The notes beneath the pieces are model-generated. The model did no database searches and was not told the origin of the DNA. It worked only from the letters and a program-made list of their open reading frames with translations. Source: a virus. From it: a DNA stretch of 35,836 bases. The stretch lies in IMG/VR virus record IMGVR_UViG_3300046003_007347, positions 1-35,836 of that record. One strand, written 5' to 3'. Shown here one piece after another: positions 12,917-35,821 of this stretch (positions are counted from its first letter, which is position 1; each line of letters begins with the position of its first letter). The position numbers were made by a program, and so were the translations under genes.

Positions 12917-13159
12917 CTATCCAAAAAATAAATAATATTTATTTTGGAATTTAATAATTTTAGAATTATATCCCTGTAAGTCCTCATCTCGTTGAATTTC
13001 AGCTTCTTTTGGGGTATCATAAAAATGAAGATAATGTAACCCAGTTTCATCTTGTATTCTATTAATAAATGAATCTTCAGTTTCTGGTTTTCTTACATTT
13101 ATTTCATTAATACCAGCAAGGTGTTGAAGTCTTTTTATCTCATTTAATAATTTGCTCAT
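12917..13159 (-). CDS. Small protein with putative capsid-targeting N-terminus
   Basis: An 80-residue protein. Residues 9-19 (KRLQHLAGINE) match the peptide found at the N-terminus of the 169-residue protein at 29874-30383 (NRLQYLAGLNE) and at the C-terminus of the scaffold (ARMQKLAGIK). The segment ends in Ile17-Asn18-Glu19, an (I/L)-x-E site of the type cut by the T4 prohead protease. The remaining 61 residues (from INVRKPETED, ending FQNKYYLFFG) form a small alpha/beta region with no known motif. By analogy with T4 internal proteins, it may be packed into the prohead and trimmed. It lies away from the head genes, between the hub region and the polymerase, and the 43-residue ORF overlaps its start by 20 bases. 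Confidence 0.6.
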   Translation of the reverse strand: MSKLLNEIKRLQHLAGINEINVRKPETEDSFINRIQDETGLHYLHFYDTPKEAEIQRDEDLQGYNSKIIKFQNKYYLFFG

Positions 13160-13271
13160 AGTGATATCTGTATTTATCTTTTGTTTGAGTTTGAATTCTC
13201 ATAGGAATTTTTAATAAAGATGCTAATAGCATTCCGAATCCAATTATTGTAAAAATTAGTTGTTTTTTCAT
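13140..13271 (-). CDS. 43-residue single-span membrane protein
   Basis: A short ORF starting at ATG 13271, which overlaps the stop of the preceding 197-residue gene in an ATGA arrangement, and ending with TGA at 13140-13142 inside the next gene. The product starts MKKQLIFTIIGFGMLLASLL, a typical positively charged N-terminus followed by one hydrophobic span, then a basic polar tail (KDKYRYHYEQIIK). It fills what would otherwise be a gap between two genes. The coupling arrangement is the main support. A role at the membrane is likely if translated, for example a small lysis or exclusion peptide, but function is unknown. Confidence 0.5.
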   Translation of the reverse strand: MKKQLIFTIIGFGMLLASLLKIPMRIQTQTKDKYRYHYEQIIK

Positions 13272-13861
13272 AATTTTGAGTATTTTGTTAAATCTGTTAA
13301 ATATTCTTTTAATCCAATAAAATTTTTATTTTTTATATCTATAATTCTTCTATTTTGCTGTTCTACAAAAGAAATGGGTAAATTCCCATCTGAAATGGTC
13401 CAAAACATTGAAATAACATCCCAACCAGCATAATTATATATACCTCCTCTATTATTTATATCATCAAAGGTTTCCTTATTTATTTCAATAATTTTAAATA
13501 TACGAATAATTCTTTGTTTTGCAAAATAACGAGTAATTTTTTTTAATTTATAATCTTCTAGGGTTGGTGTGGGAATAAATGGGATTGGTTCTTGTAAGGT
13601 TTGGATATTGATATTTGGGTTTAATTGGTTGTATTTTTTACTATTTAATGAAGGTATTGTTTTGGTATTTATGATTTCATCTTTAACCATTAATTTAATT
13701 AATGGTATACTATTTTTAGTTTGAGGATTTTCTCCACTAAAATATTTCCCATCAAAAGTAATATAATAAAACCCTAAATATTCTTTTCCATTAGGTAGAA
13801 TAAATTCTCCGGGATTAGATTTTAATCCTGTTATTATTCGAGATTGAGGATAATAAGCCAT
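13268..13861 (-). CDS. Conserved virion-type hypothetical protein, probably baseplate
   Basis: A 197-residue protein. Its beginning (MAYYPQSRIITGLKSNPGEF, then YLGFYYITFDGKYFSGENP) follows a pattern I recall from proteins encoded beside baseplate genes of large environmental myophages. That is a Tyr-rich N-terminal domain describing a folded beta unit with FTGxNP-type turns. The middle has a Pro/Ile-rich linker (PIPFIPTPTLEDYKLKK), followed by a basic segment (RYFAKQRIIRIFKIIEI) and a C-terminal helical part ending DLTKYSKL. There is no enzyme motif. It begins 1 base after the hub-lysozyme stop, so the two are co-translated, which supports a baseplate role. The exact position in the particle is not known. 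Confidence 0.65.
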   Translation of the reverse strand: MAYYPQSRIITGLKSNPGEFILPNGKEYLGFYYITFDGKYFSGENPQTKNSIPLIKLMVKDEIINTKTIPSLNSKKYNQLNPNINIQTLQEPIPFIPTPTLEDYKLKKITRYFAKQRIIRIFKIIEINKETFDDINNRGGIYNYAGWDVISMFWTISDGNLPISFVEQQNRRIIDIKNKNFIGLKEYLTDLTKYSKL

Positions 13862-13862
13862 T

Positions 13863-16800
13863 TTATATTTTGGTTATATAACAATTATAATATTCATATT
13901 TTTTAGTTCTAATATCTCCAACATTATATCCAACAGCATCTAATGCTTTTTCAAAATAATTAGAATCATATTGATTTGCTTTAACTCTATCTTTAAAATA
14001 AATAGCAGCTATCTTTGCACCTATTATAGGATCATTAACTAATTCTGGGTTGGATAAAATATTTACACCACTTAATTCGGAATATCTTTTATAGTTCCCA
14101 TATCCAGTTAATTGAATATATCCTCTTCCATAATATTTTCCTCCATCAGATATATTTCTATTTCCTACTCTAGTTGGATAATATTCTCCATATACTATAT
14201 TAAAAAATTCTTTTTTACTAATTCCTTTTTTTGTAGCTCTTTTATATTGATTTTCTGTTAGATTAGGATATATTTGTCTTAATCTTGATTCCGAATAAAT
14301 ATGATTTTCACTTTTTGGATTTAAACCAGTTTCTCCAGCAGCAATAGCTATTAAAGATGATATAGCTTGTGGGGATATTAATCCAATTTCTTTAGCTGAT
14401 TGTTTTAAATAGTTTATTGGAATATTAACTGTGGATGGAGAGAAGAATGAAGATGCTCTTCTAGTACATGTATTTGACGTTGTTGGTAATGTATATATTG
14501 GTTGAAAATCGTTAACTTTTTCTAGTTTAATTTTTGGAGTATATTCTGTTAAATCTTCTTTATCAAATCTTATATTAATGGTTTGTCCTGTTAGTTTTGT
14601 AATCCATTTATTATTTGAAAAATCTTGATTTATAGTATGTAATATAAATGCTATTTTTGGCTTACCATCCTTTGTTAAATATGAAGGAGGCAATAGATTT
14701 GATGGAATTGTAAATGCTGAGTTAGGGATTATTCCAGATAACCCATCCATACTCAAATTAAAATCTAAAGGAATTATAATAGAACCTCTGTTTGTTGGTT
14801 CTTCTTTTAATCTAAAATTAGCTAGTATTTCTCTATATGTATTATTTGAAGGTTCAATTAATGTTTGATTAATAATAAAATTAATCCCATCCCCACTAAT
14901 TATATTTTTTATATGGGTTTTTAAAGATTGTAAAGCTTCGTCATTTATGGTTTGTGTTGTAGATTCTTGATTGATTGTTGGTTCTGAAGTTAGTTTGTAT
15001 TTCATATATCTGTCTTCTAAACCCCTAGATAGATTACTTATAGCAAATGAATCTTCCCCTAATGTTGATGGATTAGCTTGAGCGGCTATTGTAATCATAC
15101 TAGCCAGATTAGAGCCTATTTTTGATTTAAAATTATAATCATATACTATACTATTTTTACCAAAAATTGGGAGTTCTGTATATTGATTAGAATCATCTGA
15201 TTCTTGGGTTGTTAATGTTCTGTTATCATCTATTATTCTAAATGATTTTGTTGAATCATCTACTAAAATTCTAAATTCATTAAAACCCCCTAAAGATCTA
15301 GATATACCAGATAAAATATTATTTAAAAATTCTGAGTATGGAACATTCCCTTTATCATCCTTCTCTCTTAGATTTCTCAAAACATCTGTAATAAAATTAA
15401 CATTTACTAATATACACATAACGTTAGCTCTTACTGTATTGTTAGTAGTAGATAAATAAGCGTTAGTAGTAGTACCAGATTTTTCTTCTGTTGTTATTTC
15501 AATTCTAACTCCATTACTTCTTTTAAAGGTTTTAGAAACTTTATTTTTATTAATTCTATCAAATAATTTATCTTCTATAACTCCTATATTAAATGGATCT
15601 TCAATACTATCTTGATTTCTTGGTATTAAACATATTTGAGGATCTAAAGATAATTGCCCTTTAAATGTTGAACAATAATTGAGAGAATCATTAAAATCAG
15701 CATATATATATGGATTTCCTTTTCCTTCTGAATTTGAATCATATATCATCCCAGTAGCAGTCATAAGTGCTAACATATTACCTAATGTTATATAGATTTG
15801 GGGTTGTAATCCGTCTATTGATGTAGAAGGGGAATTATCATTTATATTATACATAACTCCAAAAACATTGAATAATGTTTTTCTTAATATAGGTACATTA
15901 TTTAATTTATCCATATCAGATAGTATAGAATAATGGTTACCTCTCTTTGCTTTAAGGTTATTATCTTTTAAATTTCCATTTTCATCAAATTGGATGAATT
16001 CGTAAGGGCATTTAGAAAATATATTATTTAATATATTTCTATACCCTTCATCAATAACTCCATTAACCATTATTCCTTGTTCATATCCCATCTGCATATG
16101 ATATTGACTTATATCAAATAATGATCTATTAAATAATGATAAATCTCTATCACCTATTAAAGATGTTAAACTAGTTTTATCTTCTTCATTAATACCTGCA
16201 ATATCATTTTCAATTTTAGACGATAAAGAGGGTTGAATAAAATTAGTATCTTTACTTATAGCTTGATTTAATTTTAATGATTCTAAAATATCACCTGCTC
16301 CAACTAATTTTATATTACATATATATGAACCATCTTTTTGAAATTCCCATCCAAAATTAGAAACAGTACCATACATAGCATCATAGTTTCCGGAATGTAG
16401 TATTCTTCTATTTTGTATTTCTTTTATAATTTCTTCTTTAGAATAATATATAAATGGATTTATTGGGGATGGTTTTTGTAATTGATTTTGATTATCATTA
16501 TCTAAATAATAAGTATGTCCCCATTCCAATATCATAGAAAACCCTAATTTTAAATATAATGCTTCAAAAATTTCAAATTGTTCTAAATCATAACAAATAA
16601 ATTTAATATCAGCATATTGTAAAGTACCTAATTTACCAGCAGAAGATATATTAATAGATGTAATACCAGGTAATGGTTTTATTCCTTGGGGATTTAATGG
16701 GATATTACCATATAATTTATTTTCTCCAACTCCCCCTTTATTTATTATATTTCCATTAATATCTAATTCTACAGAACCTCCTTGAAGTATGTATTTTTTA

Positions 16801-17024
16801 GCTAATTCATCACCAGATTTGTTATGTTTTTTATAAATAGGGTGGTTTTGGGTTATATTAGTACCAGAAGTTAATCTTATCCAAGCATTTCTGTTATTTT
16901 GATATAATAAATAATTATTATTTCTCAATTGATGTGAATCAGATAAATATTTTTTTCTAACTTCTATTTGTTTAGCTACATATGGTTGAAATGGACTCCC
17001 AGCTATATTTGTAAATTGTTCCAT
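13863..17024 (-). CDS. Baseplate hub protein with C-terminal GH19-type lysozyme domain
   Basis: A 1053-residue protein. The first ~860 residues are a structural region rich in beta and Asn, beginning TNIAGSPFQPYVAKQIEVRK. It contains a gp27-like hub character (LQYADIKFICYDLEQFEIFE, then GFSMILEWGHTYYLD). Residues 870-1053 form a chitinase-like GH19 domain. The catalytic acid is probably Glu898 (IAAGETGLNP) and the second Glu906 (KSENHIYS). The substrate-cleft signature is YYGRGYIQLTGYGNY at about 964-978. In phages this fold usually cuts peptidoglycan, so the protein probably forms the tip that digests the cell wall at entry, as the T4 gp27-gp5 complex does with two or more polypeptides. It is encoded 5 bases after the gp53-like gene. 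Confidence 0.82.
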   Translation of the reverse strand: MEQFTNIAGSPFQPYVAKQIEVRKKYLSDSHQLRNNNYLLYQNNRNAWIRLTSGTNITQNHPIYKKHNKSGDELAKKYILQGGSVELDINGNIINKGGVGENKLYGNIPLNPQGIKPLPGITSINISSAGKLGTLQYADIKFICYDLEQFEIFEALYLKLGFSMILEWGHTYYLDNDNQNQLQKPSPINPFIYYSKEEIIKEIQNRRILHSGNYDAMYGTVSNFGWEFQKDGSYICNIKLVGAGDILESLKLNQAISKDTNFIQPSLSSKIENDIAGINEEDKTSLTSLIGDRDLSLFNRSLFDISQYHMQMGYEQGIMVNGVIDEGYRNILNNIFSKCPYEFIQFDENGNLKDNNLKAKRGNHYSILSDMDKLNNVPILRKTLFNVFGVMYNINDNSPSTSIDGLQPQIYITLGNMLALMTATGMIYDSNSEGKGNPYIYADFNDSLNYCSTFKGQLSLDPQICLIPRNQDSIEDPFNIGVIEDKLFDRINKNKVSKTFKRSNGVRIEITTEEKSGTTTNAYLSTTNNTVRANVMCILVNVNFITDVLRNLREKDDKGNVPYSEFLNNILSGISRSLGGFNEFRILVDDSTKSFRIIDDNRTLTTQESDDSNQYTELPIFGKNSIVYDYNFKSKIGSNLASMITIAAQANPSTLGEDSFAISNLSRGLEDRYMKYKLTSEPTINQESTTQTINDEALQSLKTHIKNIISGDGINFIINQTLIEPSNNTYREILANFRLKEEPTNRGSIIIPLDFNLSMDGLSGIIPNSAFTIPSNLLPPSYLTKDGKPKIAFILHTINQDFSNNKWITKLTGQTINIRFDKEDLTEYTPKIKLEKVNDFQPIYTLPTTSNTCTRRASSFFSPSTVNIPINYLKQSAKEIGLISPQAISSLIAIAAGETGLNPKSENHIYSESRLRQIYPNLTENQYKRATKKGISKKEFFNIVYGEYYPTRVGNRNISDGGKYYGRGYIQLTGYGNYKRYSELSGVNILSNPELVNDPIIGAKIAAIYFKDRVKANQYDSNYFEKALDAVGYNVGDIRTKKYEYYNCYITKI

Positions 17025-17029
17025 AACTT

Positions 17030-17332
17030 TTATATTTCGTTCTCTTGTAAAAATTTATTTATTATATTTTCTGTGGATTTTGGTATTCTTAATTGTATTC
17101 CTATTGGTGGAAACATTGAATCTCCTTCTAAATTATTTACTATTACTAATATCCACCAATATGATTCATTTCCCCAAAAATCATAAGCTATAAGATCTAA
17201 TCTATCTTGGGAACTTGTTATAATATATATATCATCTTCTGATTCTCCAATAGAAGGATAGTAAATTTGACGGTAAATTATTTTACCGTCATTTGTCTTT
17301 TCTGTAGGAATAGTTAAATATCTTGAAGACAT
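17030..17332 (-). CDS. Baseplate wedge protein, gp53/LysM-like
   Basis: A 100-residue protein. Its core, SQDRLDLIAYDFWGNESYWW followed by ILVIVNNLEGD and PPIGIQLRIP, has the layout of LysM-related tail proteins. These are a helix with RLDLIA, then YG/WG, a W-rich strand, then an N-x-I-x-D-P-like turn and a basic strand. That arrangement is seen in T4 gp53-type wedge proteins and in tail protein X. Lengths differ, since T4 gp53 is about twice as long, so this would be a minimal version. It stands between the tube-baseplate junction protein and the hub (3 and 5 bases from them), consistent with a baseplate part rather than a cell-wall hydrolase. Confidence 0.65.
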   Translation of the reverse strand: MSSRYLTIPTEKTNDGKIIYRQIYYPSIGESEDDIYIITSSQDRLDLIAYDFWGNESYWWILVIVNNLEGDSMFPPIGIQLRIPKSTENIINKFLQENEI

Positions 17333-17335
17333 AAA

Positions 17336-19066
17336 TTATAAATTTTGAAATGGGATTTTATCTTTAATGAAATTTTCAATGTCCCCTATATTATTTGAAA
17401 TTAAGGATGGGGTATCAAAATCATTTAATGTAATTGTTTTTGGTAATTCATGTAATATAGGAACAAAAGTAACACTTACATCAATAGCATGTGGTAATTC
17501 CATCATATCATTATCTCTACCTCCTTCAGGTTCGTCCATTTTTATCTCCCATGAATATTCATCTCTAACTGAAAAATTAAGGGATTTGATTATACCAGGT
17601 GTTCTATATAAATATTCTCCAATAGTAAGTCTATGAATATTACCTCTCATAAAACCATTTATTGGAGAGTAATCTGGGGTAAGAGTTGAATTTAACCAAT
17701 TTAATTTTTGCCATAATGGTTTCATTTCTTGTTTAGACTGTGCTAATACAGTAAAGTTGAAAGATATATTTCTATCAAAACCTTGATAAGTATACATATT
17801 ATCTCCTCTACCTGCATACCTTTTACCATCCCACTCAGCTGAATTATTATCTGTTAATCCTTTTAAAAATGCTCTAAAATGGGCTCTATAAGTATTATTA
17901 GGGTTATTATTATCTATAGTTTCAAATGCAAATTTTATTAAATCTCTTGTATTAGGGTCTTCTTCAACATTTTTATTAAAAGCACCATAATATATAGGGG
18001 TTAAATTTACTTTATCTTGGCCTGGTTCAAATATTTGATTTGTGTTTGTTCTTAAATCTTTGGGTCTAGCTCCAGGTGAACCTATCCCAACTCTTCTTTC
18101 TATATTAATAGTAGGAGAAGTATAATCTCTTGAAAATACACTACCTGATGGGGTAATATCTTTTCTAAAATCTGTAACAGGAGTACCTATTATATATTTT
18201 TCTCTTTTTAAATATCCTTCACCTAATTTTTGAACGAAGGTTGGATTTTGTTTAATATTATTTTCGTTTAAACCTAATTCTTCTTCAGAAATTTTGGGTT
18301 TTAGATAATTTGTAGCCCCAAATAAAGATAATGAACCTGTTGTTGGTAAACCTATATATCTAGAAATAGGTTCTATAAAAGGATTTGATGTATTTATAGG
18401 TTTTCCGGTATGATCTGTCGATTTAAATAATATAGTTTCTCCATCTCCATATAATGAATCTGGTCCACCTATATAATTCATTATTTGAAATTCATCAACA
18501 GCTATACCTAATTTAGATAATTTAGTAGTATTACTATTATCTCCTAATATTTTAGATTTATATAAATTAAATAATCTATTATCATCCAATGGTTTTTTTC
18601 CAACAATCGAAGCATATTTAACATCATCATCTAATAATGTAAGAGGAGTAGCTCCAGCTCTAGGATAATGAATCCCAGAACCTGCTGTCAATACAGATAA
18701 TAATAGGTTTGAATTTAAATTATATGTTCTTGTATTTATTCGCCCTCCATTTTCTCCAGTTTCAATTAATGGATTAGATTTTTGTAACCCAACTTGTTTT
18801 GCAGTAAAATTACTTCCTTTTGGAAAATCTGTTAAAAATTTACGTATTCTAATAGCATCCTCAGCTGCTGCTCTTACAGCATATAATCCACCACGAACAG
18901 GAAAATCTGTACTAAATTTAGCTGATTCTAAAGCTATTCTTTCTATAGGAGAAGATTTATCTGGAGTGGAAGTTTTTATATATGGTAGTCCACTATCCCC
19001 ACCACCAGGAGTATCTTTCCCGAAGCGTAAATCTTTAAGATTAGTTTGGAGATCTCTTAATGCCAT
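17336..19066 (-). CDS. Baseplate / tail-tube junction structural protein
   Basis: A 576-residue protein without enzyme motifs. The N-terminal 60 residues are Gly/Pro-rich and flexible (FGKDTPGGGDSGLPYIKTST). The C-terminal 200 residues carry the most recognisable part: KRYAGRGDNMYTYQGFDRNI, then SFNFTVLAQSKQEMKPLWQK, then LNWLNSTLTPDY, then RGNIHRLTIGEYLYRTPGII. This pattern is found in contractile-tail proteins that start the tube on the baseplate (gp48/gp54 functional class). Position supports that role: it lies between the tape measure and the gp53- and hub-type genes. I cannot say whether one protein here replaces both T4 gp48 and gp54. It could also be another wedge or hub component. Confidence 0.65.
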   Translation of the reverse strand: MALRDLQTNLKDLRFGKDTPGGGDSGLPYIKTSTPDKSSPIERIALESAKFSTDFPVRGGLYAVRAAAEDAIRIRKFLTDFPKGSNFTAKQVGLQKSNPLIETGENGGRINTRTYNLNSNLLLSVLTAGSGIHYPRAGATPLTLLDDDVKYASIVGKKPLDDNRLFNLYKSKILGDNSNTTKLSKLGIAVDEFQIMNYIGGPDSLYGDGETILFKSTDHTGKPINTSNPFIEPISRYIGLPTTGSLSLFGATNYLKPKISEEELGLNENNIKQNPTFVQKLGEGYLKREKYIIGTPVTDFRKDITPSGSVFSRDYTSPTINIERRVGIGSPGARPKDLRTNTNQIFEPGQDKVNLTPIYYGAFNKNVEEDPNTRDLIKFAFETIDNNNPNNTYRAHFRAFLKGLTDNNSAEWDGKRYAGRGDNMYTYQGFDRNISFNFTVLAQSKQEMKPLWQKLNWLNSTLTPDYSPINGFMRGNIHRLTIGEYLYRTPGIIKSLNFSVRDEYSWEIKMDEPEGGRDNDMMELPHAIDVSVTFVPILHELPKTITLNDFDTPSLISNNIGDIENFIKDKIPFQNL

Positions 19067-19069
19067 ATA

Positions 19070-19273
19070 TTATTGTGGAGGATTCGAAAGATAAGTTTGA
19101 GGTGTTATTCCATCTAAATCTAATCTTGAAGGTGATGGTAAATTTGGTAATGTTGGTGTACCATTAATTGAATATTCATTATGTTGTAATGAAGTTTGTA
19201 ATTCAGGAAGATTATTTTCTGTAATTCCTCCTCTTGATAAAGTAGATCCTACTTCTTGTCCTAATATTGCCAT
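19070..19273 (-). CDS. Small tail-region hypothetical protein
   Basis: A 67-residue protein, not recognised. It is rich in Leu, Pro, Ser, Thr and Asn (ITENNLPELQTSLQHNEYSI, then PTLPNLPSPSRLDLDGI) and has no charged helix, Cys or membrane span. It is likely extended or intrinsically disordered. It follows the tape measure gene after a candidate late promoter, 25 bases ahead of its ATG, and is 3 bases from the next gene. This placement implies a tail-assembly or baseplate accessory role. ATG 19273 is the only plausible start. Confidence 0.6.
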   Translation of the reverse strand: MAILGQEVGSTLSRGGITENNLPELQTSLQHNEYSINGTPTLPNLPSPSRLDLDGITPQTYLSNPPQ

Positions 19274-19298
19274 GATTTTTTTATTTTGTTTGTTTTTA

Positions 19299-21634: not shown

Positions 21635-21648
21635 ATTTTATTATTTTA

Positions 21649-22711: not shown

Positions 22712-22713
22712 TA

Positions 22714-25054: not shown

Positions 25055-25924
25055 TTAAGGGTATAATTCTATTAATAATGAAGATTTATCTAATAAATTA
25101 TCTACTAAAGTGTCTGAACTATTAAATGTTGTTAAAATTATTTCATTTGTTCCTGAAGAGTAATCAAGTTGAAAAGAACTTAAACCACCATTATTAGGAC
25201 TACAAAATCCCCAGGTTTTATTTAAAGTAAAATTATTAATCATAGTTCCTATATATTCACCAAAATTTGTTCTGGTCCAAGTAATATTCCCTAATGTATT
25301 TTCTAAAATAATTACGGTTGGATCGTTTGTTCCTGTTTGGGATATAAGGGCTTTATATATTTTATTTTTTTCTATTACCAAATTACCACTTTGGGATGGG
25401 TAAGATATAAATATTTCAGAACTTTGAGATAAATGTTGTTTTATTGTTGTTTTACCTAAACTACTGGAAATGTAATTATATGGGAGACTCCCAGATGTAT
25501 TATTAAATGTTGTTACATTATCATTATTACCAATAGTAAAGGAATTAGGGTTTACCGTTACTTGAGAACTATAATTATCTCTTCTTATTTCAAAACTATT
25601 ATTACCTATATAAATCCCTTCAAGTTCATTTCCTATCTGTATATAATTTCCATCTTCTATATCAATACTTCCCGATATTGTTTGGTTATCCTTAAATATA
25701 TTTGAACCAGTTATTGCAAATGAACTAGTGTTGATATATCCACTCCCTGTTGGTAAATTAGTTAATAATGAACCATCCCCAATAAAGTAAGATGAAGTAA
25801 TGGAACCACTAATTTCTATTTGGATATTAGGTGTTTCACCAGATAGGGCATCTATAATCCTAGTAAGGTGTTCAGATTTTATTTGTTGTTGTGGAGCTAT
25901 TCCACTTGTAGAAATTTTTGCCAT
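25055..25924 (-). CDS. Fibre-like structural protein with GDGS motif
   Basis: A 289-residue protein. After a helical N-terminus (QQQIKSEHLTRIIDALSG) it carries SSYFIGDGSLLTNLPTGSG at about residues 43-63. This is the same turn motif that appears twice in the 822-residue fibre and is common in phage fibre shafts. The remainder is Ser/Thr/Asn-rich with strand repeats (QTISGSIDIEDGNYIQIGNE, then GIYIGNNSFEIRRD) and a distinct C-terminal beta domain (ENTLGNITWTRTNFGEYIGT). There is no enzyme motif. It probably forms a trimeric fibre or whisker on neck or baseplate. It lies upstream of the sheath with its own candidate late promoter 12 bases before the ATG. Confidence 0.72.
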   Translation of the reverse strand: MAKISTSGIAPQQQIKSEHLTRIIDALSGETPNIQIEISGSITSSYFIGDGSLLTNLPTGSGYINTSSFAITGSNIFKDNQTISGSIDIEDGNYIQIGNELEGIYIGNNSFEIRRDNYSSQVTVNPNSFTIGNNDNVTTFNNTSGSLPYNYISSSLGKTTIKQHLSQSSEIFISYPSQSGNLVIEKNKIYKALISQTGTNDPTVIILENTLGNITWTRTNFGEYIGTMINNFTLNKTWGFCSPNNGGLSSFQLDYSSGTNEIILTTFNSSDTLVDNLLDKSSLLIELYP

Positions 25925-26286: not shown

Positions 26287-26308
26287 AAATAAAAATACGT
26301 TTCTTATT

Positions 26309-26877: not shown

Positions 26878-26878
26878 A

Positions 26879-29347
26879 TTATTTAGATATTAAAAGTTGT
26901 TTTCTTGTTACTGAATCAGAAGCGTTTCCTAATTGAACAGTTGTAAAAAAATAATTATCAATTGTTGGGTCAAAAGGGATAGATAAAGTTGCTACTGATA
27001 AACCGCCAATATCTGAAATAGCGTTTACATTTCCATCGACTCTACCATTCAATAAACCGCCTGTTATTTCAAAAGTTCTAATTATTTTCGCTGAAACATT
27101 TGCATTAGCCATTGCAAAGACAGCTATTACAGTAGCTCCTGTAAGTGTGTCGCTTGTATTGTGCCAAAGTCGTATCTGACAAGTTCCTAATCCAGCAGAT
27201 TTTTCAACCGCAAACGAATCTAAATTCATTAAATCTTCTGCACTAAAAGTATTTGCAGGAATTAAAATACTACTACCTATTTGAGTTCGTGAAGTTGTGC
27301 CTGTAACTGTTGTTGTTGGTGTGGTGTTTTTTACTAACCATTGCAAATTATTTTTATCATTTACCCACTCACGAGTTGCGACGCTCTTTGTTCCTCCCTC
27401 ATCTTCAAAATTGAAAGTTGTATTTTGACTTCTTGGAGTCGCTTTAATTATTGTTTCAGTAGCAGAAGATAAATCACCTAAAACAAAATCAGTAGTTGAA
27501 AATGTTGAGTAATAATTTTCACCTAATAAACTAAAATTTGCTGGTTGAATTGTTGTTGATTCAGATACACCAGTTATAGTTATATTATTTGTTGTAGCAC
27601 TCCCAACATCTGTAACTTGTTGAAAGTTGGGGGTATTACTATTAACCCACTCTTTTGTTACAAGTGATTTACCTGTAGTTTCATTATCTATAATAGAAAT
27701 CGTTAATCCAGGTGCTGTAATCTCTCTACTACTACTTAAAATTAAAATATCATCTGTATTAGATAAACTTGGTGTTGATGTATTTCCTAAAGTAAATATA
27801 GTACTACTATTATTTTTTCCTGATACTATATATAAATTGTTTGTAGAGTATAAAGCAGCATTTGTTCTAAATTTTGTAACAAAATAATTATCCCCAAAAA
27901 ATGCTAATTGGGTAGAATTAGTAAATGGTGCTCCGGAACCTTGTGCTGTAAAAGCGGAGATTGTTCCATTTCCAGTAGTATTAGAGTTTCTAATAAAATA
28001 TCCTGTATTATTATTAAGAGAACTTGATATAAAAAATCCAGAGTTAGTAGTTTTTGGTTGCAACCTAATTCCATAATAAGAATCAACTGGTGATGTTATG
28101 GTTTGGAGTAAGCTTTGTGATATTCCTGTTAATTGTGAACCATCTCCAATAAAACTCCCTGTAAAACTTCCTGTATTATAACTAGATGTAAAATTATTAA
28201 AGGAAGAAGTTAATAATAAAGAACTAGTATCAAAATTAAAATTATTAATTCTATTATCGAATGATGAGCTATCCTGATTATATGAACCTGTTAATATAAA
28301 ACTTCCTGTATCTATATTACTACCAGAAGGTAATGGTAGATTAGTTAAAAGAGAACCATCTCCTATAAAAGTACCATTAAATGTACCATAATATGCTACT
28401 CTATTATTGTTTTGATTTGTATATGTAATTACTTTGTTTCCTCCATTATCTGTAGATATAGGTAGAGGTGATTGGGCAAATTCTTTAAATAATAGTTTTG
28501 TTACATTATATGATTTTGGGGAAGGTGCTGCTTTTTGTACATTTACAGATTTTGGGATTATATATCCATTTACTACAAGAGTAAGTTCACTTTTTATTCC
28601 TCTATCATTCCCATTCTCAACTTGAATGGGAGTTGGAAATTGTGTTATACTTGCTCTGAATTGAAATCTTTCTTTATCTCCCCAATATGAATCAGAAGCA
28701 AATTCAATTGCTTCTATTATACTATTCATATGCTCTACATAATCAGTGAAAATAGTAAGTTTATATGTTAAAGTAATATAATCAGGAATTATACCAACTT
28801 GATATTCTTCACTAGGTTTTTGATTTTGTAAAACAGAGAAATTATCATAAGCATTTCGTTTTGAATAACCTGTTTTAAAATATTGTACATTTTGTACTTT
28901 ATTCCCATCTAATTTATTTCCTAATCTTCTATCTTTTTCAAACGATTCTCTCTTTATTGCTATAACAGGTATAAAAGCTTTACCATCTTTATCGCGAAAA
29001 AAACCGTCTTTTTGCATTGACTTCCATCTTTCAGGGGAACCGTATATAATAGGTACTTCGCGTTGATTTCCGTTAATTTCAACTGTTGGTTTTATATAAT
29101 TTTTTAAATAATATAAAATAGTATCATCATGATCTTCTAAAGTGATATTAATTATATTATTAATATCATCCTTCATAGAGATCTCATTACCTCTAATTAA
29201 ATTAGGTTCACCGGGTGTTGTGTATTTTGCGTTTGGATTAGAGTTATCGTATGGTTGTTCTATTTGCTCTGGAATCTGATATGGATCAGGCAAATTCTTT
29301 AGAAATTTCTCTCTGTTTATTGGAGTTGGTTTCTCTCTTTTAGCCAT
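26879..29347 (-). CDS. Chimeric structural protein / tail fibre
   Basis: An 822-residue protein with three parts. Residues 1-290 form a virion anchoring domain, with segments DDTILYYLKNYIKPTVEING, PIIYGSPERWKSMQKDGFFR and PDYITLTYKLTIFTDYVEHM, that looks like a conserved neck or baseplate attachment unit. Residues 320-560 are a Ser/Thr/Asn-rich shaft with FIGDGSLLTNLP (about 326-338) and FIGDGSQLTGI (about 396-408). Residues 560-822 carry two copies of a K-S-(L/V)-(V/A)-T-(K/R)-E-W-V-N motif and a compact beta domain at the tip (ILIPANTFSAEDLMNLDSFA, then TCQIRLWHNTSDTLTGA). Hand-counted GC rises from 14/60 in the shaft (28381-28440) to 27/60 in the tip (27121-27180), a sign that the tip was exchanged. 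A fibre-assembly-like gene follows. Confidence 0.8.
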   Translation of the reverse strand: MAKREKPTPINREKFLKNLPDPYQIPEQIEQPYDNSNPNAKYTTPGEPNLIRGNEISMKDDINNIINITLEDHDDTILYYLKNYIKPTVEINGNQREVPIIYGSPERWKSMQKDGFFRDKDGKAFIPVIAIKRESFEKDRRLGNKLDGNKVQNVQYFKTGYSKRNAYDNFSVLQNQKPSEEYQVGIIPDYITLTYKLTIFTDYVEHMNSIIEAIEFASDSYWGDKERFQFRASITQFPTPIQVENGNDRGIKSELTLVVNGYIIPKSVNVQKAAPSPKSYNVTKLLFKEFAQSPLPISTDNGGNKVITYTNQNNNRVAYYGTFNGTFIGDGSLLTNLPLPSGSNIDTGSFILTGSYNQDSSSFDNRINNFNFDTSSLLLTSSFNNFTSSYNTGSFTGSFIGDGSQLTGISQSLLQTITSPVDSYYGIRLQPKTTNSGFFISSSLNNNTGYFIRNSNTTGNGTISAFTAQGSGAPFTNSTQLAFFGDNYFVTKFRTNAALYSTNNLYIVSGKNNSSTIFTLGNTSTPSLSNTDDILILSSSREITAPGLTISIIDNETTGKSLVTKEWVNSNTPNFQQVTDVGSATTNNITITGVSESTTIQPANFSLLGENYYSTFSTTDFVLGDLSSATETIIKATPRSQNTTFNFEDEGGTKSVATREWVNDKNNLQWLVKNTTPTTTVTGTTSRTQIGSSILIPANTFSAEDLMNLDSFAVEKSAGLGTCQIRLWHNTSDTLTGATVIAVFAMANANVSAKIIRTFEITGGLLNGRVDGNVNAISDIGGLSVATLSIPFDPTIDNYFFTTVQLGNASDSVTRKQLLISK

Positions 29348-29874
29348 TATATACTTGTTCTTTTAAATGTATTTCTTATGAATTTAAGTTTTTGTAATAA
29401 ACTTGCTAAACGTTTTGTATCTTTGTAATCTTTTTTATAAGACTCTAATTTATTTATTAATATTGATAATTCTCTATGTAAGTCTTTATCAGTGATATCT
29501 TTATCTACTTTCCATGTAACTGATTGTGTTAATGGGTCTATATCAGTTACAGTAGTTTTTGATGTTCCAGATTGTGTAGTTTTTCCTATTTGAAAATCAT
29601 CAACATTTTCATTAATATTAAAATTAATTTCATCATCATTCCACCACATCTTGTTTGTGTTTTTTTCATTTGGAAATGAAATTAAACTCCATGTTACTTC
29701 TTCAGGATTTTCAAAATCAGGTAAAAATGGTTTATCTTTAATATCATTCCACTTTATACCTTTTTTATAAACTATTATATCATTTCTATCCCCAGTATTT
29801 AATACTGCTCTACGAGGTGGAGTGTTTATTTTTATTTCCGATAATAGGAAATTTTTACTATCTCTTATATCCAT
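29347..29874 (-). CDS. Head-cluster protein with MDI-type N-terminal peptide
   Basis: A 175-residue protein. It starts [20 protein letters not shown], nearly the same as the 95-residue protein at 30885-31172 ([20 protein letters not shown]), while the remainders are unrelated. Leu11-Ser12-Glu13 fits the (I/L)-x-E site of the T4 prohead protease, so the first 13 residues may be a removable capsid-targeting peptide. The body has an acidic Trp-rich middle (KMWWNDDEINFNINENVDDF) and a basic helical C-terminus (LESYKKDYKDTKRLASLLQK, then LKFIRNTFKRTSI). The latter would suit DNA contact inside the head. The start overlaps the upstream stop by one base. No known domain is recognised. Confidence 0.68.
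   Translation of the reverse strand: MDIRDSKNFLLSEIKINTPPRRAVLNTGDRNDIIVYKKGIKWNDIKDKPFLPDFENPEEVTWSLISFPNEKNTNKMWWNDDEINFNINENVDDFQIGKTTQSGTSKTTVTDIDPLTQSVTWKVDKDITDKDLHRELSILINKLESYKKDYKDTKRLASLLQKLKFIRNTFKRTSI
29838..29857 (-). repeat. 20-base direct repeat, copy 1
   Basis: CCGATAATAGGAAATTTTTA on the plus strand is identical to 31136-31155. It encodes KNFLLSE of the shared N-terminal peptide. Exact nucleotide identity in two otherwise unrelated genes points to recent duplication or recombination of the leader segment. Confidence 0.85.
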
Positions 29875-30383
29875 TATAAACTAGCTTTTAATTTTGATGC
29901 AATTTGAGAAATTTCAACTCCTTTAACACCACCTACAGCACTTTCAATGGCTTTAATTATAACAGAATCAGCAGTAAGTACTCCTTTAACAGCATAACCA
30001 GCAGCAACTGCTAATATTATAGCATAAATAACTTTGGAAGTTGTTTCTAATTTTTCTTCATTTACTCCATTTTCATCACTCCAAACACTTTTAGCTAAAC
30101 CTGTTATTTTAATTAATCTTTTAATTAAACCAAGATAAACATGTTCCCATTTATGGGCAAATTTTTCAATTGTTTGAGCTACTTCAGATTCATCACCGCT
30201 TTTAGAAAATTTCTTCGATATAGCTCCAATAGCTTTACCTACCCACTCTAATACTTTGGGTGCGGCTAATAAACCTCCAATAATTAAACTACCTACGGCT
30301 TCATCTAATTGTTGTGGTTCTTCTAATTGTGTATAATTTTCGTTTAAACCAGCCAAATACTGTAATCTATTTTGTTCTTTCAT
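29874..30383 (-). CDS. Putative internal capsid / membrane-active protein with LAGLNE peptide
   Basis: A 169-residue protein. It opens [20 protein letters not shown], sharing the LAG(I/L)NE peptide with the 80-residue protein and the C-terminus of the scaffold. Leu13-Asn14-Glu15 and Leu26-Asp27-Glu28 (before Ala29) both fit prohead-protease sites. The rest is helical with two hydrophobic amphipathic stretches, about 29-43 (AVGSLIIGGLLAAPK) and 117-137 (KVIYAIILAVAAGYAVKGVL), plus Lys-rich segments (SKKFSKSGD, then LIKRLIKITGLAK). A soluble precursor that becomes membrane-active after processing would fit an ejected internal protein. It is encoded between two head-type genes with one-base overlaps. 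Confidence 0.65.
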   Translation of the reverse strand: MKEQNRLQYLAGLNENYTQLEEPQQLDEAVGSLIIGGLLAAPKVLEWVGKAIGAISKKFSKSGDESEVAQTIEKFAHKWEHVYLGLIKRLIKITGLAKSVWSDENGVNEEKLETTSKVIYAIILAVAAGYAVKGVLTADSVIIKAIESAVGGVKGVEISQIASKLKASL

Positions 30384-30883
30384 TATATTCTTTCTTCTTT
30401 AATTCCTAATTTTTCAGCGCGTGTGTAATGTGCAGTTACTATAATAGATAATGAAGTACCTGTGTCTTCAACACCATCCCCAACCTTATAAGCGTATTCA
30501 GCATCTCTACCATGAACGGCTTGATTTTCGTTGATTTGGTTTATTTCAAAATATGATTCATTCCATAATAAAACATCTCCTATCATAGGAATAACATTAG
30601 CTTCTCTAAGATGTAATTTTAAAAATCTAACGACTAATGATCTTTCTCTATCCTGACCATAATCGTTGTCTGTTGTTTGAAAATCACCTCTTTCAATAAG
30701 ACAATTTATTAATATAGGACCTGTAAATTTTTTCTGTAATGATTCACCATATATATTTTCTTTTGTTTCTTCTAAATCAACAATATAATATCCTACTTTT
30801 TGTTCAATAATTTGACCTAAAAGTTCTTTATTTATATTATGGAAAAAATCTATATCCCTACTTCTACTCCAAAATGCACACAT
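30383..30883 (-). CDS. Conserved virion protein, probable neck / head completion
   Basis: A 166-residue protein. It begins [20 protein letters not shown] and continues [20 protein letters not shown] and [20 protein letters not shown], a pattern I recall from neck-region proteins of T4-like environmental phages. The second half has [20 protein letters not shown] followed by [15 protein letters not shown], a compact beta domain suited to the head-tail connector (head-closure/stopper type). Position between capsid and tail genes, near the neck protein at 31177, supports this. Which T4 neck gene (13, 14, 15 or 3) it corresponds to cannot be decided by eye. Confidence 0.65.
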
Positions 30884-30884
30884 A

Positions 30885-31172
30885 TTATTTTTGTTTTATA
30901 TATTTTAAATTAATAGATGCGTATCCTTGAGAATCATCATTTTTATATGGAATATTTTTAGAAATCAAATAATTTTCTAATTCTTCCCATTCTTCATCTT
31001 CTGTAAGAAATGAAATTTCATCTCCATCAATTTCTCCATATAATTTCCATCCATTATCTAATTTATAATATAATTTATTAGGATATTCTTGGTCTTTATA
31101 TAAATCTATACGAAAAGGATTAATTACTTTTATCTCCGATAATAGGAAATTTTTATATTTTAATATATCCAT
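30885..31172 (-). CDS. Small head-cluster protein with MDI-type N-terminal peptide
   Basis: A 95-residue protein with N-terminus [20 protein letters not shown], paired with the 175-residue gene 1.3 kb away. The predicted protease site is Leu11-Ser12-Glu13. The body is acidic and Tyr-rich ([20 protein letters not shown], then [19 protein letters not shown]), probably a small alpha/beta fold with no known motif. It lies 4 bases downstream of the neck protein and 1 base upstream of the next gene, so it is co-expressed with head-completion proteins. A T4 IP-like internal protein is a possible role; an anti-host-defence or DNA-associated function after ejection would be further inference. Confidence 0.65.
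31136..31155 (-). repeat. 20-base direct repeat, copy 2
   Basis: Second copy of CCGATAATAGGAAATTTTTA, inside the first codons of the 95-residue gene, in the same reading frame and orientation as the copy at 29838-29857. Similarity falls away quickly on both sides. Confidence 0.85.
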
Positions 31173-31176
31173 AATT

Positions 31177-32346
31177 TTAAGCTATAAAAATAGCCATTGG
31201 GAAATCAGTTAATGTTTGTTTTAAAGAAGCATTCTCTTCTTCTTTTCTTTTTAATTGTGCTCTTCTAGATGTTTCTTCAAGATCTTTTCTTAATTTTTCA
31301 ATTAATGCTGTTTTATCTTTATCTGATGAATTAAATAAATCCATAGAATTTAAAGATACACTATCTCCTGGAATTGGTGTGGTTTGATATTTACCTCTAA
31401 TGAAACCCAATAATTCTTTAGCCAACACTAACGTATATTCAAATATCCAAAATCTACCAGGTCCATTAATAGTAGAATATGTTATATTATTATATGGAAC
31501 ATTGGATAAATCTGTTACTAATCCATTTCCTGAACCATAACTTCCTGAAGGAGATAATACATTATTTTTTGAAGAATTTCTTACAAATTTAAAATATAGT
31601 GGGTGATTTCTTGTTGGAACTGGGAAAATTTGTAATTTATTATTAATTATATTAAATGAGAATCCTGATTTTCTAATAGTATCATTTAATTCAATTGCTT
31701 GTAATACAGATAAATCGAAGTTTAAAGGCATTAACATAAAATTAATTGCTGGTGATTGTGTTCCAAACCCAAAGGCATCTAATAACTGTTGAGAACCATA
31801 TCCTGTACCAGCATATGGATCAAAATACCTCATTATGGCTGGAATATTTTCATAAAATACTTGTTTTACTTCAATACTATCTCCAGGTAATAATGAAGCA
31901 GATGAAGATGCCCATACATTTAAATCGTATTCTTGTTGCCCAGGAATTAAATCAATAAAACCTTTTTCCCAATCTATATTACCACCAACACCTACTTCTG
32001 CTCCATAATCTTGTGAAATTTGGATTATATTATGTAATGATGGATTTATATATTGATTATTTAAATTTGATGAGGTAGGCATGGCTTCCATAGTAATGAA
32101 ATTATTTGTTATATTATTCATATAAACCTCATTACTATATGTAGAAATTGCTTGTTCAAAACAAGCAAAGAATTGATTATCACTCATTTCAACATCCATT
32201 GCTGGATACCCCATACGAGTAGCACAAAAACGTGCTACTCTAAGGGCGTCTGCTCTAAATTGTGAGTCATTATCGTAGAATCCAAATGGTGTTGATGATC
32301 CTGAAGTGAATATTGGATTATCATTCCAAATTACTGAATTAGCCAT
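31177..32346 (-). CDS. Neck protein, gp13-like
   Basis: A 389-residue structural protein. Its N-terminal domain (RVARFCATRMGYPAMDVEMS, then DNQFFACFEQAISTYSNEVY) has the helix pattern of T4-type neck/connector proteins, in which a four-helix unit binds the portal-side ring. The central beta part includes GFIDLIPGQQEYDLNVWAS, then SIEVKQVFYENIPAIMRYFD, and a later core (YFKFVRNSSKNN, then FWIFEYTLVLAKELLGFIRG). It ends in a long charged helix (LRKDLEETSRRAQLKRKEEE) and the tail FPMAIFIA. It is larger than T4 gp13 (about 309). It stands after PhoH with its own candidate late promoter 13 bases upstream. Confidence 0.75.
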   Translation of the reverse strand: MANSVIWNDNPIFTSGSSTPFGFYDNDSQFRADALRVARFCATRMGYPAMDVEMSDNQFFACFEQAISTYSNEVYMNNITNNFITMEAMPTSSNLNNQYINPSLHNIIQISQDYGAEVGVGGNIDWEKGFIDLIPGQQEYDLNVWASSSASLLPGDSIEVKQVFYENIPAIMRYFDPYAGTGYGSQQLLDAFGFGTQSPAINFMLMPLNFDLSVLQAIELNDTIRKSGFSFNIINNKLQIFPVPTRNHPLYFKFVRNSSKNNVLSPSGSYGSGNGLVTDLSNVPYNNITYSTINGPGRFWIFEYTLVLAKELLGFIRGKYQTTPIPGDSVSLNSMDLFNSSDKDKTALIEKLRKDLEETSRRAQLKRKEEENASLKQTLTDFPMAIFIA

Positions 32347-32359
32347 TGTTTAATTTTAG

Positions 32360-32369
32360 TATAAATATG
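32360..32369 (-). promoter_or_regulatory. Candidate late promoter of the neck gene cluster
   Basis: ACCATATTTATACTAAAATT in the gene direction, with the TATTTATA core, 13 bases before the ATG at 32346. The gap to PhoH is only 24 bases and holds no hairpin, so this would add to read-through transcription. Confidence 0.48.
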
Positions 32370-32370
32370 G

Positions 32371-33060
32371 TTAATCTCTAAATTCTTCGTATATATTTAA
32401 TATATCTTCAACAGCTTCATGTCTATTATTGGTTTTTAGAGTAACTATTTTTACATTTTTACTTCTTTCTTCTAATCTATTAAAAAATGAAATTCCAGAT
32501 TCTTTTTTGCTTTTTAAATCTGTTTGAGTTATATCACCACAAAATACCATAGTTCCTCCTTTTCCTAATCTACCCATCATCATTTCATTTTGTTTATGAG
32601 TAATATTTTGACATTCATCTACTATAATAAAAGCCTCTGGAAATGTTCTACCTCTCATAAATGCAAATGGGACAATTTCTATAGTACCATCTGTTAGTAA
32701 TTTATCAATTTTTTCTTTATCATATAATAAATATAAATTATGATAAATTGGTGCCAACCAAGGATCCATTTTTTCTTTTAAATCCCCAGGTAAAAATCCA
32801 ATTTCTTCATCGGATACTGTAGGTCTTGTTATAATAATTTTTTTAACTTCTTTTTTAAAGAGTAAATCTAAAGCAATTTGACAAACTAATAATGTTTTTC
32901 CAGAACCTGCCATTCCTTTTACTAAAGTATAGGGATGTGAAAGAATTAATCTTTTTCCTTCTTTTTGTTCCTCATTTAAAGAAATTTTGAATTTGATTTC
33001 TCCTTTAGGTTTACTTTGTTGGACATGAACCGGGTCTGTGTGTGGTCTTGATGATGCCAT
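32371..33060 (-). CDS. phoH: PhoH-like ATPase
   Basis: A 229-residue P-loop ATPase of the PhoH family, related to helicase superfamily 1 motors. Walker A is GMAGSGKT at residues 49-56. The conserved IITRPTVSDEEIGFLPGDLK follows at about 76-95, Walker B with DECQN (Asp148, Glu149) comes next, then VFCGDITQTDLK. Length matches phage PhoH. PhoH-family genes are very common in marine phages, and their role is unresolved, with RNA metabolism and phosphate stress both proposed. Here it lies alone between the capsid terminator and the neck gene, with a candidate late promoter, so it would be expressed late with head proteins. Confidence 0.93.
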   Translation of the reverse strand: MASSRPHTDPVHVQQSKPKGEIKFKISLNEEQKEGKRLILSHPYTLVKGMAGSGKTLLVCQIALDLLFKKEVKKIIITRPTVSDEEIGFLPGDLKEKMDPWLAPIYHNLYLLYDKEKIDKLLTDGTIEIVPFAFMRGRTFPEAFIIVDECQNITHKQNEMMMGRLGKGGTMVFCGDITQTDLKSKKESGISFFNRLEERSKNVKIVTLKTNNRHEAVEDILNIYEEFRD

Positions 33061-33082
33061 ATAATTATAAATTAATATTTAA

Positions 33083-33092
33083 TATAAATATA
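33083..33092 (-). promoter_or_regulatory. Candidate late promoter of phoH
   Basis: TTATATTTATATTAAATATT in the gene direction, 22 bases before the ATG at 33060 and about 34 bases after the capsid terminator. The strong terminator upstream makes a promoter in this gap necessary for phoH expression. Confidence 0.52.
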
Positions 33093-33125
33093 ATTAAAGA
33101 AGAGATAATATCAAAATTATTCCAA

Positions 33126-33157
33126 TAAAAAAGCCCGCAAAAGCGGGCTTCTTTTTA
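33126..33157 (-). terminator. Strong terminator after the major capsid gene
   Basis: A perfect 7-bp stem AGCCCGC/GCGGGCT with an AAAA (plus strand) loop. In the gene direction it is followed by TTTTTATTGG, and on the plus strand by TCTTTTTAAAA, so it can act both ways. It starts 17 bases past the capsid stop codon and is the most GC-rich element of the region. Confidence 0.93.
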
Positions 33158-33173
33158 AAATATTTAAGAAATA

Positions 33174-34817
33174 TTATACTGCGTCTAAGTCAGCTACAAC
33201 AACTTTAGCGTAGAATTCCGGACGAACCATTTTCTTAGCGTATCTTGTCATAATACCTTTACGAGGTGTAAATGTTTCTGGATCATATACTAATGGAGTA
33301 GTCATAATAGGAATATATGGAGCATAAACAGCACCTGTTTCAAGGAATTGGTTACCTCTATAACCCATTAAAATAGTATTTTCTAACATATAAGGGTTTT
33401 TATAAACTTTATATCTAGAATTTAATGAACCTACTTTTTGTACACCAAATGCATATGTTGATTTTTCTGCTGCACCATCTGTATCAGCTGCAAATCCTGG
33501 GATTGATTCTAAGATTGTAGCTACACTTGGAGATACTACCATAAAGTTAGCACCACCTCTTAATGTTTTCTGGTGAATAGCATTCGATACTTTTTGTAAT
33601 TTAATACCAATTGTTTGGAACCATGACATTTTAGTGTAATATAAACCTGCGTTATTTACATTTGAAAATGCACCACCAGCGTAATCTTGACCTACTTTAG
33701 CTGACCAATATTCTGTTGTTGGAGCGTTTTGAATTAACATATCTAAAATTTCCATATCAATCTCTAAAGATATATATTCTGACATTAAATCAGTAACTTC
33801 TGCCTCAGCATCAATTGATTGGAATGCATTTAAATCTTGAGAGAATTCTGGTGTCCAACTTGCTTTTAATTTTTTAGTTTTAGCAGCAATTGTATCAGAT
33901 TTCATTGAAATATTAAATTCTGGAATAACAATATCTGTTGCAGAAGCAGCATTTGGGATTGAGAATGTACCTGCTGTACTATCTTCATAATCACCTCTGT
34001 TATTATCTTTAGTTTGTTTACTATATAATACAGAAGCTGCTGTTAATGTAGGAGCTGAACCAGTATAATAGAAATCAATATTACCTGCTGCTGTAGTTCT
34101 AGTAAATGCTTGTAATAAGTTAGTTGGATTTACACCTGAACCTGAAATAGCAAATGATCTTACACCATTTTGATCAAAACTTGATAATGATGAAGTTGCT
34201 ACTGAGATTTTATAAATTCCTCCAGCTGCAATAGAAGCTGATAAGTTTGAATCATAATTAACATCAGCTAATGTTAATGAAGATGAAGCTACTGTTCCTG
34301 AGAATACTCCTGAAGCTGAAGCAATTGCGAATTGGTTTGTTGAGTAACCAAATCTACCTGCACCATATAATCCACCCTCTGCATCATTTGAAAATACATT
34401 TCCTAATGAATTTTTACCATATAATGAATCACCTTTAGCGAATGGAGATTTTGTATTACCATATTGGAAATCTAAGAAGAAGATTAAACCTGCTGGTAAT
34501 GACATTGGTTGTACAGAAACAAACTCTTTTGCTGCGATTTGACCAAATACTTTACGTACTAATGGTAATGCTACAGCTGCATATTGTTCACCTTGACCTG
34601 CTGTAAACGAAGCTCCACCTTGATTAGTTGTGTTATTTTCAACAACTAACTGTTTTGCTTGGTTTTCTAACAATACAGCCATATTTGCTTTTTCTGTATC
34701 GTTACTTAAATTTTCTAATAGACCTGATTTAGCCCATTTGTTAGCTAATTTCATAGCACCACTTAATTGTGAATTATATGGATTAGCGCTTTCTAATAAT
34801 TGATTTACTACTGACAT
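33174..34817 (-). CDS. Major capsid protein, gp23-like
   Basis: A 547-residue HK97-fold capsid subunit. The N-terminal 60 residues form a delta-type, Asn/Leu-rich helical arm. The mature start is probably after Glu60 (KQLVVE, then NNTTNQGGASFTAG), where the prohead protease cuts gp23 in T4. The alignment with gp23 resumes at ALPLVRKVFGQI, then SVQPMSLPAGLIFFLDFQYG. The insertion domain corresponds to the Ser/Ala-rich residues about 130-270. The C-terminal core has MSEYISLEIDMEILDMLIQN, NFMVVSPSVATILESIPGFA and ETFTPRKGIMTRYAKKM. Length is close to T4 gp23 (521). It follows the scaffold gene by 26 bases, as gp22-gp23 do in T4, and ends at a strong terminator. Confidence 0.95.
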   Translation of the reverse strand: MSVVNQLLESANPYNSQLSGAMKLANKWAKSGLLENLSNDTEKANMAVLLENQAKQLVVENNTTNQGGASFTAGQGEQYAAVALPLVRKVFGQIAAKEFVSVQPMSLPAGLIFFLDFQYGNTKSPFAKGDSLYGKNSLGNVFSNDAEGGLYGAGRFGYSTNQFAIASASGVFSGTVASSSLTLADVNYDSNLSASIAAGGIYKISVATSSLSSFDQNGVRSFAISGSGVNPTNLLQAFTRTTAAGNIDFYYTGSAPTLTAASVLYSKQTKDNNRGDYEDSTAGTFSIPNAASATDIVIPEFNISMKSDTIAAKTKKLKASWTPEFSQDLNAFQSIDAEAEVTDLMSEYISLEIDMEILDMLIQNAPTTEYWSAKVGQDYAGGAFSNVNNAGLYYTKMSWFQTIGIKLQKVSNAIHQKTLRGGANFMVVSPSVATILESIPGFAADTDGAAEKSTYAFGVQKVGSLNSRYKVYKNPYMLENTILMGYRGNQFLETGAVYAPYIPIMTTPLVYDPETFTPRKGIMTRYAKKMVRPEFYAKVVVADLDAV

Positions 34818-34843
34818 TCGTGTTTATTTAATTTTTATTTTTA

Positions 34844-35821
34844 TTATTTAATTCCTGCAAGTTTTTGCATTCTTGCTACAAAATCAACTGATTCTGTTAT
34901 TACTTCTTTTTTAGCAACACCTGCTGCTTTTGATGCAAATCCTCTATTTTCTACTAATGGAGATGATTTTTGAGATGTACCTATTGATTCTTTAATTGTT
35001 TGGAAAGTATTTTGTACTTCTTTAACATTTGCTGCTCTATCAAAAGCATTAATAACAGCTACTTTTTTAGATTCAGATAAATTAGTAGATTTAAATACTT
35101 TATTAACGTAAATTAATTTAGCATTTAATAAATTCATTTCAGATAATTGTTTTTTAACTTTAACAATTTCTTTTTTAGCTTCTTCTAATTCTTTAACTTC
35201 ACTTCTTAATGCTGCTCCGGCTCCTGCTGGTAAGCTTTTAATAAATTCAGCAATTTTTGATGCCATTTCTGGTGATTTTGCTATTGCCGATTTTACCATA
35301 TCAATGATATTATCTAAACCTGCTGCTGCTGCATTTGCTGGGTCTACTGATCCACCATTCATTTCAGCTAAAATTTCATCTAAATCGATATCTTCTTCCT
35401 CTTCTGTTTCCATTTCAGGTTCCATATCCATCTCAGATTCCATTTCTTCTTCAGTTTCACCACCTTCTAATTCCATCATTACATCGCGAATTACATCTTT
35501 TAATTCATCAACCGTAAGTTCAGCAACTTCGTCACCACCTTCTTCTTCACCAAATTCGTCAGTTTCTTCACCCATTTCTAATTCTGGTGTTTCAACCTCA
35601 GTTTCTGTTGTATCTTCAGTTTCCATTTCATTTAAAATTTCTTCTAAAGATTTTTCTTCGTTCATTTCTTCTTCTTCCATTTCGTTTAATTTTGTTTGAA
35701 GCATAGATTGAACTCTAGGAGCGAATGATTCAGCCATTGCTATTTTAGCTTGGGCTAAAGCTGCTTCTTTTAATTGCTTTGCTTCTGCTACTGCATCTAC
35801 AAATAATTTGTTTTTTGACAT
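34844..35821 (-). CDS. Prohead core scaffold protein, gp22-like
   Basis: A 325-residue protein around which the prohead assembles and which is normally degraded by the prohead protease. The N-terminal helix (NKLFVDAVAEAKQLKEAALA) is followed by a Glu-dominated region, residues 47-155, with many (I/L)-x-E type sites. Next is an Ala/Ile-rich helical part (AAAAGLDNIIDMVKSAIA, then EELEEAKKEIVKVKKQLSEM). The last residues 314-325, FVARMQKLAGIK, contain the LAG(I/L) peptide also found at the N-termini of two putative internal proteins. Position just before gp23 and composition fit gp22. The ATG is 15 bases from the right window edge, with an A-rich leader, and the protease and portal genes should lie beyond. 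Confidence 0.85.
   Translation of the reverse strand: MSKNKLFVDAVAEAKQLKEAALAQAKIAMAESFAPRVQSMLQTKLNEMEEEEMNEEKSLEEILNEMETEDTTETEVETPELEMGEETDEFGEEEGGDEVAELTVDELKDVIRDVMMELEGGETEEEMESEMDMEPEMETEEEEDIDLDEILAEMNGGSVDPANAAAAGLDNIIDMVKSAIAKSPEMASKIAEFIKSLPAGAGAALRSEVKELEEAKKEIVKVKKQLSEMNLLNAKLIYVNKVFKSTNLSESKKVAVINAFDRAANVKEVQNTFQTIKESIGTSQKSSPLVENRGFASKAAGVAKKEVITESVDFVARMQKLAGIK

Follow-up and report, generated by a model that had tools for sequence, protein, structure and literature searches.

Short terminal peptides that dock cargo or scaffold on a shell are known from the cargo-loading peptides of encapsulins and the coat-binding C-termini of phage scaffolds. The cargo peptide of encapsulins is not removed by a maturation protease, and we know of no case in encapsulin or phage-scaffold systems in which one peptide is common to the scaffold and many cargos. 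In bacteriophage T4, internal proteins are reported to carry a capsid-targeting sequence (CTS) that is not reported for other proteins of the core (PMC9958956); this sequence alone suffices for the loading of foreign proteins (PMC9026906, PMC9958956). The specificity of the T4 gp21 protease is L/I-x-E, and Alt is cut at both ends (PMC9026906). T4 internal proteins of this kind counter a host restriction enzyme or modify RNA polymerase (PMC9958956, PMC9026906). A 2023 review describes as still mysterious how certain proteins come to be placed in the T4 scaffolding core (PMC9958956).

The window analyzed here is the whole of a 35.8-kb virus record (IMGVR_UViG_3300046003_007347; 35,836 nucleotides) from a T4-like phage, with open reading frames (ORFs) obtained by simple ORF calling in place of a gene finder. 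The three related peptides described in the initial annotation are all present, in the ORFs of the scaffold and of two small, otherwise unrelated proteins of 80 and 169 amino acids (aa); they are referred to here as the LAG tag. The features are as follows:

12917..13159, minus strand: 80-aa LAG-leader protein, N-terminal KRLQHLAGINE
13103..13159, minus strand: leader of the 80-aa protein, MSKLLNEIKRLQHLAGINE; predicted cut after E19, second site LLNE7
29347..29874, minus strand: 175-aa protein with a leader of the KNFLLSE type; its homologue in G017 has a LAG leader instead
29874..30383, minus strand: 169-aa LAG-leader protein (d169 family), N-terminal NRLQYLAGLNE
30339..30383, minus strand: leader of the 169-aa protein; predicted cut after E15, further site LDE28
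30885..31172, minus strand: 95-aa protein with the other leader type, ..KNFLLSE, followed by IKVxxP
33174..34817, minus strand: major capsid protein, gp23-like (phrog_138, E 5.6e-67)
34844..35821, minus strand: scaffold, 325 aa, acidic and rich in [IL]xE sites, placed like gp22 just upstream of the major capsid gene, in synteny with relatives
34847..34876, minus strand: C-terminal tag of the scaffold, ARMQKLAGIK, its last ten residues
34892..34900, minus strand: ITE, a candidate site for the protease shortly before the scaffold tag

The predicted cut positions, which go back to the initial annotation, are correctly placed in the sequence. A six-frame search of the window for [LM]Q.LAG found no occurrence besides those in the scaffold and the 80- and 169-aa proteins; the motif is absent from the replication-type proteins (3091-12873). 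No protease gene was found in the record, which ends at the scaffold. Homologues of the 169-aa protein are located between protease and scaffold in some relatives. For the 80-aa protein, no homologues were found beyond the leader; the search returned only portal-like proteins of other phages, whose match to NEIKRLQH was attributed to chance and rejected. The 95- and 175-aa proteins have in common a second leader, ..KNFLLSEIK, followed by [IV]xxP, which resembles the T4 capsid-targeting type, and the downstream IK[VI]xxP of the 95-aa protein also occurs in LAG-leader proteins. Our main reading, to which we assign a probability of about 0.76, is that the LAG tag loads proteins into the prohead by imitating the scaffold tail and is cleaved off during maturation, leaving the cargo for delivery with the DNA.

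To place the window among its relatives, viruses were gathered by homology to the scaffold and the capsid protein and, in addition, with a DNA pattern encoding [NS]E-xx-R[LM]QxLAGI. The pattern occurs in at least 120 stretches of the viral collection, and all 87 of the matches read, among the matches listed, fall in ORFs, nearly all at the N-terminus and a few at the extreme C-terminus; their usual N-terminal form is M-K-x-x-[IL]-N-E-[IVA]-K-R-M-Q-Q-L-A-G-I-[IL]-[NTK]-E. In a scan of 3,237 ORFs from 20 related genomes or contigs, the octamer [RK][LMWIF]xxLA[GN][ILVM] was compared with zone-wise shuffles: the first 25 residues of the ORFs contain 46 copies (shuffle mean, 0.31), the extreme C-termini 25 (0.10), and all other positions 5 (2.3). 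The terminal counts show that the placement of the motif is not due to chance. The N-terminal count is inflated by contigs G010 to G024, which were picked by the pattern; the C-terminal copies on scaffolds were not selected for, and the genomes chosen by homology still give 8 N-terminal copies (2 in the window, 4 in G006, and 2 in Flavobacterium phage immuto). A strict DNA form of the leader matched 50 times in 43 viral loci and not once in 84,980 species genomes of bacteria and archaea. Among cultured phages, the leader was found in immuto only, in short-peptide searches of limited sensitivity. The candidate cargo proteins of immuto, whose host is Flavobacterium sp. LMO8, are of 154 aa (111675-112139) and 131 aa (25061-25456), with cuts predicted just after ITE. 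The LAG family, of which the initial annotation noted three copies while missing the other leader of the 95- and 175-aa proteins, comprises well over 100 copies in a large group of mostly uncultured T4-like bacterial viruses. Proteomic or structural data were looked for in immuto, the sole cultured cargo-bearing relative, and none were found. In the open papers searched, the letters of the peptide returned only unrelated articles, mostly on dinosaurs, and nothing was found on capsid targeting with a LAG motif, which leaves a prior description possible.

The tag is a fixed feature of the scaffold. All 19 scaffolds from the genomes and contigs end in R-[MWF]-x-x-L-A-[GN]-[IL] (RWQKLAGIIK in immuto), and in 17 of the 19 an [ILV]xE site lies within about 13 residues before the tail. 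More divergent tails read RMQKLADIS (LR756508), RIKRLAGL (Rhodothermus phage RM378), and TLKTLAGRKAK (LR756511). In an alignment of 27 scaffolds that includes RM378, the tail is conserved about as strongly as the best part of the core domain. Identification of this protein as the scaffold rests on the gene order protease-scaffold-capsid, which agrees with a gp22 identity, as profile comparison (hhalign) of the group scaffold with T4-type gp22 was not significant.

Wherever a genome read has LAG cargo and its scaffold is readable, that scaffold carries the tag, in G021 inside a fused ORF. In RM378, Mel-JY01, G001, G002, and G003, the scaffold tag is present, and a search for an N-terminal LAG protein found none. 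A scaffold tag that occurs alone in several phages and is always present where there is LAG cargo fits the idea that the scaffold copy is the original. At the variable position of the motif (M, L, W, or F), scaffold and cargo of one genome do not vary together: strict pairing, such as RW with RW, was considered and rejected, G012 having one match and most genomes none. The interaction therefore looks generic rather than paired, and the "docking code" of the initial annotation is only partly apt as a term. In G010 and G015, a scaffold LAN accompanies LAN at the C-terminus of other proteins, and the N-terminal leaders of these phages stay LAG.

Some head gene clusters showed peculiarities of their own. 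The fused ORF of G021 (27635-30475, minus strand, locus L273) joins scaffold and major capsid protein in 946 aa, with the junction NRWQVLAG|PYQDQLG in place of the normal scaffold stop and capsid start, and reflects either a genuine fusion or a fault of the assembly. G015 has two similar major capsid genes side by side (97830-101304), and the head gene cluster of Mel-JY01 includes an annotated gene for ribosomal protein S21 (rpsU; L003, 9543-9770).

The proteins that carry the tag at the N-terminus are diverse: once the leader is removed, 103 distinct proteins fall into 84 unrelated clusters (BLASTP, E<1e-3). In 91% of the 103, an [IL]xE site follows within 12 residues of LAG, against a background of 10%, and the DNA pattern for the leader made no demand for such a site. 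In the genome-scan set, whose search required neither Q nor E, 43 of 46 leaders retain Q, and [IL]xE follows in 42 of 46. The spacing from LAG to the site varies (INE, IITE, IKSLNE, IQTLKE), which suggests that the site is kept rather than an exact linker. A gp21-type protease (Peptidase_S77, PF03420) was detected in 15/15 group genomes tested; with the phrog_138 gp23-like capsid protein, it indicates T4-like head assembly. In G012, G014, G015, and G018, genes of LAG proteins are placed immediately between those of the protease and the scaffold. A Pfam scan of 20 LAG proteins gave none that passes the cut-off, and searches against PHROGs and the PDB gave nothing clear and no function. C-terminal LAG copies are also found on proteins other than the scaffold, and two proteins, of 760 aa (G029) and 445 aa (G011), recall T4 Alt in combining a CTS-like N-terminus with a LAG-like C-terminus. 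One family, with the LAG leader MNEIxRLQxLAGI followed by GHVDNERDMLR, FPHWWQAKIVKA, and DPSGVS, occurs in L102, L105, L116, L131, L150, and L152; in immuto, its core domain lies, without the leader, inside a longer protein of 842 aa.

[IL]xE sites flank the tag on one or both sides, 32 of the 46 leaders of the genome-scan set also having [ILV]xE within 7 residues before it, and the T4 scaffold is itself a protease substrate (PMC9026906). The tag could accordingly be an address for the prohead protease, or chiefly a recognition or degradation element, with its carriers trimmed or destroyed at maturation rather than kept as cargo. We regard this as unlikely: long mature parts follow the leader, in which the density of sites is not unusual (background, 7 to 10%), and cleavage needs no LAG octamer, as L/I-x-E suffices for T4 gp21 (PMC9026906).

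The loading reading gains further support from the exchange of leaders on homologous proteins. When only the mature domain of the 169-aa protein was used as the query, homologues with a LAG leader were found in the window, G012, G014, L100, L173, and L174, and homologues with other leaders were found in G005/G006 (MNNKLFVKHLILETLSE), G013, L104 (MKLMHLLLEAE), L138, Mel-JY01, and immuto. Similarly, the family of the 175-aa protein has KNFLLSE in the window, KNRLLSE in G018, MIKLMTILQE in G005/G006, and LAG in G017. MIKLMTILQE is in the exact register of the T4 CTS, with hydrophobic residues at positions 4, 7, and 8 and Glu at position 10. Decamers in this register are about 14-fold enriched in these genomes (66 versus 4.8 expected), and in T4 this test singles out the MKTYQEFIAE leaders. 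Many unrelated proteins of G006, G010 to G016, G024, immuto, and Mel-JY01 start with MIKLxx[IL]LxE, and both leader types lead into an IK[VI]xxP context in many proteins. Because homologous mature domains alternate between LAG and T4 CTS-like leaders, the two appear interchangeable.

This exchange also bears on the destination of the carriers. N-terminal amphipathic peptides of many kinds look alike, so the leader might direct its carriers elsewhere than to the head, for example to the host membrane or to a degradation machine, its resemblance to the scaffold tail being convergent. Such an explanation seems very unlikely given that R, Q, L, A, G, and I match the scaffold tail at the same spacing, that C-terminal copies occur on non-scaffold proteins, that the cargo genes are often beside head genes, and that the leader is swapped with CTS-type leaders.

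Nor does the repetition of the leader appear to be a matter of DNA. One short sequence before many unrelated genes, some of them neighboring LAG genes, is what a recombination module would produce if it shuffled genes and were kept at the DNA level, its peptide having no function. However, leaders within one genome differ synonymously, to the extent that in one G006 pair 7 of 11 identical residues have different codons; these differences argue that the peptide is what is selected and, together with the conservation of the scaffold C-terminal copy over great distance, make a recombination module hardly credible.

Loading by mimicry of the scaffold tail would proceed as follows. Within the prohead core, the LAG peptide would act as a short docking tag, probably a helix, with which the C-terminus of the scaffold may bind a fixed partner; the likeliest partners are the inside of the capsid shell and the lattice formed by the scaffold. 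Internal proteins of unrelated families, which are probably ejected, would bear a copy of the tag, usually N-terminal but in some cases C-terminal, and this likeness to the scaffold tail would bring them into the core as it assembles. During maturation, the gp21-type protease would cut at (I/L)-x-E beside the tag and so remove it, and the mature cargo would stay in the head and be delivered with the DNA. The prohead loading signal proposed in the initial annotation thus gains support at the sequence level from the fixed scaffold tail, the unrelated carriers often encoded between protease and scaffold, the [IL]xE sites that follow the tag, and the swaps with CTS-like leaders.

The LAG tag would work like the T4 CTS, and its sequence and its copy on the scaffold appear new. 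Like the CTS of IPI, IPII, and IPIII, it is a short N-terminal leader, here a predicted propeptide, that small proteins have in common although they are otherwise unrelated, and an L/I-x-E site comes after it; the LAG carriers are putative head proteins. Unlike the CTS, a decamer of the form M..Y..FI.E, the LAG leader is about 15 to 20 residues long with an internal R[LM]QxLAG[IL] block, and its spacing departs from the decamer register, into which the separate MIKL leader of these genomes falls. LAG also occurs at C-termini and forms the end of the scaffold, whereas the CTS is not reported on other core proteins (PMC9958956). Conversely, the MIKLxx[IL]LxE leader of the same phages, a CTS-register decamer that alternates with LAG on homologues, lacks the LAG block and was not seen on the scaffolds read.

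The T4-type gp22 scaffolds (T4, Aeromonas, Vibrio, cyanophage, and Methylophilales phage) similarly have a short conserved C-terminus, with an invariant Tyr, but they end in ..Y..A..R rather than LAG (..VYAKVASRF in T4), and the two scaffold families are not significantly related by profile. In L217, L326, L327, L328, and L331, the gp22 tail reads ..AYxxAxxR with the invariant Tyr, possibly the counterpart of the LAG tail. Tentatively, and with considerable doubt, scaffold-tail mimicry could be the general means of cargo choice in T4-like viruses, with the tags of each lineage copying the contact peptide at the scaffold C-terminus; T4 would be included, Tyr4 and Phe7 of its CTS mimicking the Tyr-x-x-hydrophobic tail of gp22. 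The LAG lineage would show the mimicry openly because its scaffold and cargo copies are still nearly identical.

Because many phages display both the tag and the scaffold tail, its likely model, a simple test of binding and packaging is within reach. As an annotation rule, the tag marks likely virion cargo among proteins that have no match in family libraries, in a widespread group of environmental phages, and phage-based delivery might gain a new loading peptide from it. For the viruses themselves, the finding suggests how they choose the proteins that are loaded into their heads.
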